DNA of 64,000 bases from Bacteroidota bacterium (GTDB lineage: Bacteria > Bacteroidota > Ignavibacteria > UBA10030 > UBA8401), in NCBI GenBank assembly GCA_021796215.1, contig JAJYOK010000001.1, positions 124,001 through 188,000 on the forward strand, in the 5' to 3' direction. Both the position numbers and the translations under genes were made by a program. The first letter of the stretch is position 1, and each line of letters begins with the position of its first letter. Below the pieces are notes generated by a model. The model saw nothing but the letters and a program-made list of their open reading frames with translations. It did no database searches and had not been told where the DNA came from. Of this stretch, positions 7,266-9,441 are shown in pieces.

Positions 7266-7293
7266 TTGACTCTGCGAAAATTATCGCTATATT
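7266..7293 (+). promoter_or_regulatory. sigma70-like promoter (TTGACT-16-TATATT) driving a short transcript
   Basis: TTGACT 7266-7271, TATATT 7288-7293. Confidence 0.55.
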
Positions 7294-7299
7294 TGTTCC

Positions 7300-7383
7300 T
7301 GACCCGTGCGGCAATTCCTCCCCTGATTGTTGCACACTAAAAGGGTCGAGCTCGGTGCCCCCCCACACCGGGCTTTTTTATTT
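7300..7383 (+). ncRNA. Candidate structured small RNA (or attenuator leader) with two C-rich hairpin loops
   Basis: GTGCGGCAAT/ATTGTTGCAC 10-bp stem with loop TCCTCCCCTG, enclosed by GACCC/GGGTC, followed by GCTCGGTG/CACCGGGC terminator with CCCCCCCA loop and T6. Confidence 0.55.
7350..7383 (+). terminator. Rho-independent terminator
   Basis: GCTCGGTG 7350-7357 / CACCGGGC 7366-7373 then TTTTTTATTT. Confidence 0.8.
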
Positions 7384-7779: not shown

Positions 7780-8775
7780 TTAAAGCGGAAAAAAAGGGGA
7801 GAGCAGCCAATATATTAGTGCGGAAGCAATTGCAGAGAGAGGAATTGTCAGGAGCCACGCCATCACAATTCTTTTCGCAACACCCCAGCGAACAGCAGAA
7901 AGTCTTTTTGTTGCACCGACTCCCATAATTGCACCGGTGATAGTGTGTGTCGTACTGACAGCGATGCCGCTCATCGCTGTGATGAGCAAAGTAAATCCGC
8001 CTGCGGTTTCGGCCGAAAACCCATCCGATGTTTTTAGCTTGGTTACCTTTTGTCCCATTGTCTTCACAATTCTCCAACCGCCGAACAATGTTCCTAAGGC
8101 GATGGCAATGTGGCACAAGATAATCACTTCGAAAGGAACGGCGAAAGTTTTCAATATTCCTGCAGTGACAAGCAATCCCGTAATAACCCCCATGGTTTTT
8201 TGCGCATCGTTTGTGCCGTGTCCCAAACTGTACACCGCGGCTGAAAGAAGCTGAAGCCTGCGAAACGCATGATTGATTTTTGACGAAGACCGGTGATGAA
8301 ACATCCACATTAATGTTACCTTGATTGTGAATCCAATCACCATTCCCATAATAGGCGCGACGACCATAAAGATGAGCGTATTTGTCCATCCTCCGTACAA
8401 AATTGAGCCGAAGCCTGCTTTTGCGATTGCGGCGCCTGCGTAGCCGCCCATGAGCGCGTGCGATGAACTTGTTGGGAGACCGAAATACCATGTGATGATG
8501 TCCCAAAAAATAGCGCCCAGCAAACCACAAAGAATGACATACTCGTTTACCGATTCCAATTTAATCAAACCTTTACCGAGAGTGGTGGCAACACTGACGC
8601 CGAAAACAAATGCCGCCACAAGATTAAAGAACGCAGCCCAGATCACTGCCTTGCGTGGAGTAAGAACGCGTGTGGAGACAATTGTCGCAATTGAATTTGC
8701 GGCATCGTGGAACCCATTTAAGAAATCGAATACAAGCGCAATAAGGATGATGAGAAGGACGAACGGTGTCAACAT
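7780..8775 (-). CDS. PiT family inorganic phosphate transporter
   Basis: GFHDAANSIATIVSTRVLTP and GHGTNDAQKTMGVI duplicated PHO4 signatures. Confidence 0.95.
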   Translation of the reverse strand: MLTPFVLLIILIALVFDFLNGFHDAANSIATIVSTRVLTPRKAVIWAAFFNLVAAFVFGVSVATTLGKGLIKLESVNEYVILCGLLGAIFWDIITWYFGLPTSSSHALMGGYAGAAIAKAGFGSILYGGWTNTLIFMVVAPIMGMVIGFTIKVTLMWMFHHRSSSKINHAFRRLQLLSAAVYSLGHGTNDAQKTMGVITGLLVTAGILKTFAVPFEVIILCHIAIALGTLFGGWRIVKTMGQKVTKLKTSDGFSAETAGGFTLLITAMSGIAVSTTHTITGAIMGVGATKRLSAVRWGVAKRIVMAWLLTIPLSAIASALIYWLLSPFFPL

Positions 8776-8793
8776 AAAGAGTTCGAAAAATAA

Positions 8794-9441
8794 TTAGGCG
8801 TGTTTAATTACAATTGATTCGAGAACATTAGCAACATCTTCACAACTGTCGGTCGCCGTTTCCAATCCGACGTAAACTTCTTTCAGTTTGATAAGCTGAA
8901 AAGGATCTTTTTCATTCCCAAAAAGTCCTACCATTGCTTCCTCAAAGACAGTGTCCGCTTCATTTTCATACTCGTTGACAGTTTTAAAAACTTTTTGCAA
9001 CTCATCGGCTTGCTGCAGGTTTCGTAAAAGAGTTATACCCCGCTGAAGTTCAGCGATGGATTTTGCAATGATTTCGATAAGGCGAATAGAGTCGGCAGGC
9101 CATTCCTTCAATTTATATAAGTAGAAACGTCGCGCAGATCCGTCTATTTGATCCATAATTTCGTCGAGTGAATAAGCGAGAAGGTGAATATCCTCGCGGT
9201 CAAAGGGTGTTACAAATGTTCCGTTTAGTTCGGAAAAGATCTTGTGTGTGATAGAATCACCCGCATGTTCACAGTCGCGTATTTCACGAACGAATTTTTC
9301 TTGTTCAGTTTTTATTTTTGCGGCTGAAAGTTTTTTCATTATGGACGCTGCCGCAACAAGGTTCTGAGCGGATTCTTCAAAAAGGGAAAAAAATGTTTCA
9401 TCATGCGGAAGAAGAACTTTGATAAAACGGTCGAGTTTCAT
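8794..9441 (-). CDS. DUF47 / PhoU-like Pit accessory protein
   Basis: Sequence pattern REIRDCEHAGDSITHKIFSEL...TPFDREDIHLLAYSLDEIMDQID; adjacent to pit. Confidence 0.92.
   Translation of the reverse strand: MKLDRFIKVLLPHDETFFSLFEESAQNLVAAASIMKKLSAAKIKTEQEKFVREIRDCEHAGDSITHKIFSELNGTFVTPFDREDIHLLAYSLDEIMDQIDGSARRFYLYKLKEWPADSIRLIEIIAKSIAELQRGITLLRNLQQADELQKVFKTVNEYENEADTVFEEAMVGLFGNEKDPFQLIKLKEVYVGLETATDSCEDVANVLESIVIKHA

Follow-up and report, generated by a model that had tools for sequence, protein, structure and literature searches.

Small RNAs (sRNAs) that display C-rich loops and act independently of Hfq are known in the Actinobacteria, the Proteobacteria and Helicobacter. In B11, the mycobacterial representative of the 6C RNA (RF01066), each of the two loops alone represses a target that carries a G6 tract (PMC10470900). 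The sX13 RNA of Xanthomonas (RF02232) acts without Hfq on mRNAs that bear 4G motifs close to their start (PMC3771888), and NfeR1/ar14, described with the cuckoo RNA family (RF02344), has three hairpins that each bear CCUCCUCCC and silences via redundant C-rich loops (PMC10746234). RepG of Helicobacter pylori pairs through the C/U-rich loop of its terminator (PMC8295292).

The window analyzed here, the whole stretch of 64,000 nt, almost certainly holds a real, conserved structured RNA (Table 1). The first-pass annotation had seen in it a 6C-like layout in an unrelated lineage, and this description holds: like the 6C/B11 RNAs, which are ~75–80 nt long, it has two hairpins with C-rich loops, the second of which is the terminator. 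The 6C RNA is, however, actinobacterial, and its loop 1 is C6 rather than YUCCCCU; in the RNA described here, a GACC/GGUC helix also encloses hairpin 1 and an A-rich linker. The ar14/NfeR1 RNA shares the C-rich loops, the variable stems and the proposed independence from Hfq. In contrast to its three hairpins, only two are present here, with YUCCCCU and C5–7 loops in which CCUCC is unconserved, and the first hairpin of the ar14 model aligns to promoter DNA. The 4C/5C loops of sX13, likewise Hfq-independent, are also carried on stable stems, but sX13 is 115 nt long and has three stems. RepG, set beside the RNA by description, provides a precedent for a terminator-hairpin loop as the pairing site, as is proposed here for loop 2, although its sequence differs and it has a known G-repeat target. 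Finally, anti-hemB (RF02837) resembles the RNA in its 81-nt model, CCUCCC-containing loop and terminator, whereas the terminator loop of that model is U-rich. An Rfam scan, as had been suggested, returned no family at gathering thresholds in the window and none at cut-off when the relatives were included. The nearest model was ar14, with 39.1 bits on locus L062 and 27.1 bits on the window, both below the cut-off of 58.8. The 6C model reached 16.0 bits on L062 (cut-off 47) and was unlisted for the window at E values up to 10, sX13 reached 11.8 bits (cut-off 50), and anti-hemB stayed sub-threshold at 18.5–25.2 bits (cut-off 49.5). The likeness to the known families is one of design, common descent being undemonstrated. 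The kind of RNA is known; the family is new and is absent from Rfam at threshold.

The first-pass annotation had proposed a compact RNA of about 80 nt with its own promoter and terminator. The predicted length is 81 nt, and both the promoter and the stems are conserved. When the 81-nt RNA was folded alone, exactly both hairpins were obtained (−36.4 kcal/mol, z = −4.95), and none of 200 dinucleotide shuffles was as stable. This fold agrees with the 10-bp stem and C-rich loop that had been described, and the second hairpin had rightly been read as an intrinsic terminator with a C-rich loop. The elements of the TTGACT-16-TATATT promoter are also conserved upstream of the homologues: TTGA[CT] lies 5′ of the RNA in 67 of 70 (10% in shuffles), the 16-nt spacing is the commonest (46 of the 63 homologues having both elements), and the −10 element of the homologous copies usually ends 6–7 nt ahead of the first G of GACC. 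Because of the conserved −35 element, this spacing and this distance, the start is put at ~7301, where a start near 7300 had been expected at the GACCC...GGGTC domain; we infer that the RNA runs from there to the U run.

Table 1. Features of the RNA locus, numbered from the first nucleotide of the window. The ends of the RNA as listed are predicted, with the start at the first G and the end within the T run.
Feature	Positions	Strand	Basis or detail
−35 element TTGACT	7266–7271	+	sequence; TTGA[CT] also 5′ of homologues
−10 element TATATT	7288–7293	+	16 nt from −35 element
Structured RNA, ~80 nt (81 nt)	7301–7381	+	covariance-model match G000:C14:131301-131381; fold
Closing helix, 5′ side GACCC	7301–7305	+	partner 7343–7347
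Closing helix, 3′ side GGGTC	7343–7347	+	covariation
Hairpin 1, 5′ arm GTGCGGCAAT	7306–7315	+	10-bp stem with 7326–7335
Loop 1 TCCTCCCCTG	7316–7325	+	TCCCC conserved; part before TCCCC variable
Hairpin 1, 3′ arm ATTGTTGCAC	7326–7335	+	covariation
Terminator hairpin	7350–7373	+	arms GCTCGGTG (7350–7357) and CACCGGGC (7366–7373)
Terminator loop CCCCCCCA, seven-C	7358–7365	+	sequence
Terminator T run, T6	7374–7379	+	sequence
DUF3098 small membrane protein gene, 99 aa	7455–7754	+	PF11297, 23.4 bits (cut-off 25)

A lack of conservation or of stem covariation had been set beforehand as grounds for rejecting the RNA; instead, the stems show strong compensatory changes and the RNA occurs class-wide. 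A second copy in the source genome (G000:C8:48720-48826) is 89% identical over 107 nt by BLAST, and the RNA is present in 14 of the 60 nearest relatives. A degenerate pattern run against GTDB genomes gave 17 matches, and every MAG with a match is named Bacteroidetes, Bacteroidota, Ignavibacteriae or Ignavibacteriales. In a plain MAFFT alignment of 19 distinct sequences, which is blind to structure, 97.9% of cells are paired, and double-side changes occur in 45 cells relative to 18 in shuffles. Sliding the partners in this alignment lowers pairing to ~35%. An alignment of 65 distinct sequences, which had been fitted to the covariance model and to which the MAFFT alignment of 19 gives a like picture, has 97.1% of cells paired, double changes in 18 of 23 pairs and 161 double-change cells (39 in shuffles), with at most 46% pairing in the slid controls. 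For the closing helix, 99.2% of cells are paired and three of the four modelled pairs show double changes; for hairpin 1, nine of ten pairs do. The homolog covariance model, a further check that had been called for, found the RNA with its covarying stems in the order and the class: with model R1, 19 of the 22 family genomes and 65 of the 98 in the order carry it, and with model R2, so do 168 of the 394 in the class (E ≤ 0.001). In a phylum-wide sample, essentially no RNA was found outside the class, with one marginal match (E = 7.6e-5).

While the stems vary freely among copies, the core of loop 1 is constant: TCCCC is present in 69 of 70 homologues, and the loop is near-invariant as YUCCCCU. 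In the terminator hairpin, the longest C run is 5–7 in 65 of the 70. Among 113 inspected copies from the order and the class, both C-rich loops are present in 90, loop 1 only in 12, loop 2 only in 10 and neither in 1; at least one C-rich loop is kept in 112. The single copy with neither loop matches the expectation for independent loss (~1.3), and the loss pattern therefore fits redundancy and gives no proof of it. Mutual redundancy of the loops was accordingly set aside as a reading of this pattern, which is indistinguishable from independence. Several divergent copies were also observed. At L161 (G031), a copy ahead of DUF3098 has lost both C-rich loops to decay and retains a recognizable promoter and hairpins. 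Three extra copies in G074 (L106, L107 and L108) are without the loop-1 UCCCC and retain a C-rich terminator loop, and the shorter leaders of family f14 (L154, L156, L157, L158 and L170), also without this motif, retain a C5–8 terminator loop. At L154 and L158, a DUF3098-like gene comes next.

The linkage to DUF3098 that had been claimed extends far beyond the window. A DUF3098 gene lies 3′ of the RNA in roughly nine-tenths of the non-redundant copies in the order (about 63 of 70), usually with 15–45 nt between the RNA and the start of the gene, and the linkage recurs in further families. The DUF3098 proteins of two relatives exceed the PF11297 cut-off of 25 (27.3 and 27.6). The gene usually found 5′ of the RNA in families f4, f5, f6, f9 and f22 encodes an ATP-binding protein that we take, by sequence, to be lolD-like; in family f24, a gene for an 82-aa protein lies 5′ and DUF3098 lies 3′. 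Beyond DUF3098 in the window, positions 7780–9441 presumably hold, as judged by eye, a convergent phosphate-transporter-like gene (331 aa) and a 215-aa DUF47-type-like partner gene. In family f3 (L200–L206), DUF3098 directly follows the lolD-like gene without the RNA at six of seven loci, an arrangement that is a putative natural loss (or pre-insertion) state. The neighbors of one f6 genome likewise show DUF3098 without the RNA. In other families of the class, a DUF3098 gene is missing beside many copies, and some copies lie beside a tRNA gene. Free-standing copies occur in G000, G002, G004, G012 and G074, those of the first four genomes being second copies, and G074 has up to six RNA matches in one genome. 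Tandem arrays comprise two to five copies: G263 has five in a stretch of 510 bp, G307 has four and G252 has two. Since DUF3098 occurs without the RNA and the RNA without DUF3098, the RNA is more than a fixed piece of a DUF3098 leader.

The five copies of G263 (L153 1408-1917; G263:C71:130016-130525) are spaced ~110 nt apart with a tRNA gene adjoining, and they belong to a divergent subtype, GAGUUGAGC...UCUCCCCU...GAUGCUC. The four tandem copies at L149 and L168 (G307:C38:54027-54699) are of the same subtype and also adjoin a tRNA gene.

The suggestion that loop 1 displays a strong anti-Shine-Dalgarno sequence did not withstand comparison. The invariant core is UCCCCU, and CCUCC, which gives the window's copy its anti-Shine-Dalgarno look, is present only in some copies, with UUCUUCCCC, UUUCUCCCC or UUACUCCCC in others. 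Start regions were surveyed in stretches of the source genome that total 464 kb, ~14% of it: the Shine-Dalgarno sequence at 363 predicted starts is AAGGAG, and GGGGAG is absent from all 363 start regions. Target prediction with the loop seed against these regions, which had also been proposed, showed that the loop pairs with starts no better than with coding sequence (mean duplex energy of −5.68 kcal/mol at starts and −5.65 kcal/mol inside genes), whereas a 16S-type tail, used as a yardstick, separates the two (−5.87 vs −5.31). Because start prediction relied on a simple script with a preference for AGGAGG, the start-region test is a pilot; in this 464-kb pilot, sites complementary to the loops, as for 6C-type pairing with G-rich sites, are not enriched at starts. 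Generic anti-Shine-Dalgarno silencing was rejected as unsupported by loop pairing in these 464 kb. The 9-nt complement AGGGGAGGA has three sites in the genome, two of which are the RNA genes themselves. The only other site (L199, G000:C40:68292-68300) lies just 5′ of an ATG that opens a frame of 18 codons and was dismissed as unconvincing. Of 29 CAGGGGAR sites inspected, seven are near a possible start, and most of these seven are apparently within longer open frames. No convincing target was found among the AGGGGAGGA sites, the CAGGGGAR sites or the start regions of the source genome. Given the negative start-region test and the one outside AGGGGAGGA site, any targets would have to be few or to carry shorter G tracts.

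With regard to the Hfq-independent functional kind of sRNA, the host group is without Hfq: PF17209 was not found in any of the 21 genomes of relatives searched, and the same search gave matches in 5 of 14 well-known genomes used as a control. Of 13 genomes, 11 encode RRM proteins, a chaperone type that has been reported in Bacteroides (RbpB, PMC11697453). The multiple and tandem copies, the constant loops on variable stems, the dedicated promoter and terminator and the absence of Hfq together favor action in trans via the C-rich loops, and a free sRNA of this type is the moderately probable reading of the sequences and of the described analogues. In the proposed mechanism, a sigma-70-type promoter would produce an ~80-nt RNA that begins at GACC, folds into a closed hairpin showing the YUCCCCU loop and a terminator hairpin showing a C5–7 loop, and ends at the U run. 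This RNA would accumulate as a free sRNA, and its loops would pair in trans, without Hfq, with short G-rich tracts of a few mRNAs. Where a gap of only 15–45 nt between the terminator and the start codon leaves no space for another promoter, DUF3098 probably shares the promoter of the RNA by terminator read-through, which would allow its expression and co-regulate it with the sRNA. On the best reading, then, the RNA may represent a new family of Hfq-independent C-rich-loop sRNAs that works like 6C/B11, sX13, RepG and ar14/NfeR1 and is a member of none of them. The order-wide linkage to DUF3098 is a counterpoint, as it exceeds what is expected for a purely trans-acting RNA. It is tentatively conceivable that this class-wide, Hfq-free RNA is both a trans-acting C-loop sRNA and the DUF3098 leader, and the founding member of such a family in Ignavibacteria-related Bacteroidota. 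In a limited literature search, in which DUF3098 turned up in one paper, no description of a leader-linked arrangement of a C-loop sRNA was found.

Other explanations were weighed against trans action. The 3′ half of the element resembles any intrinsic terminator, as would be expected if there were no RNA element but a chance promoter followed by the ordinary terminator of the upstream gene; the covariation, the class-wide conservation and the conserved promoter have already refuted this explanation, which retains a negligible probability. The tight placement of the RNA ahead of DUF3098 keeps a cis-acting role in consideration, in which a terminator-bearing 5′ leader attenuates DUF3098 and read-through is set by a protein, an RNA or a metabolite. 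Consistent with such a leader, most copies of the order, and further families as well, show the linkage, the spacer offers scant space for a separate promoter, and family f14, without loop 1, still has the promoter, the terminator and DUF3098. However, the MFE and centroid folds of the one read-through RNA that was folded contain no antiterminator, and the spacer, in which a G4 tract was considered as a pairing site for the loops, is unconserved in sequence with an unremarkable G4 content (9 vs 5.2 expected). The free-standing and tandem copies are unexplained by an attenuator and argue for action in trans, and f3 has DUF3098 without the RNA. A purely cis-acting leader is considered unlikely.

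A protein ligand for the loops is a serious alternative, in which an RRM, cold-shock-type or ribosomal protein would recognize the C-rich loops and the RNA would serve as a sponge or scaffold. The near-absolute conservation of the loops on very divergent stems, the lack of enrichment of the mRNA complement at starts and the presence of RRM proteins in most relatives agree with this possibility, and a sponge role would fit the tandem arrays. On the other hand, no protein with such a preference has been identified, the two loops are unlike in sequence, and the known RNAs of like shape act by base pairing; protein binding as the main function is judged quite improbable.

The RNA adds an undescribed C-loop family, with variable copy number and a fixed genetic partner, across a class of Bacteroidota-related bacteria that are mostly uncultured and without Hfq. 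It speaks for a repeated origin of the C-loop sRNA design, and its covariance model is ready for use in the annotation of these genomes. For DUF3098, the RNA is the first lead on a co-regulation partner. If the dual role as trans-acting sRNA and DUF3098 leader is true, termination efficiency would split the output of one promoter, with one share for a global riboregulator and the other for a membrane protein.
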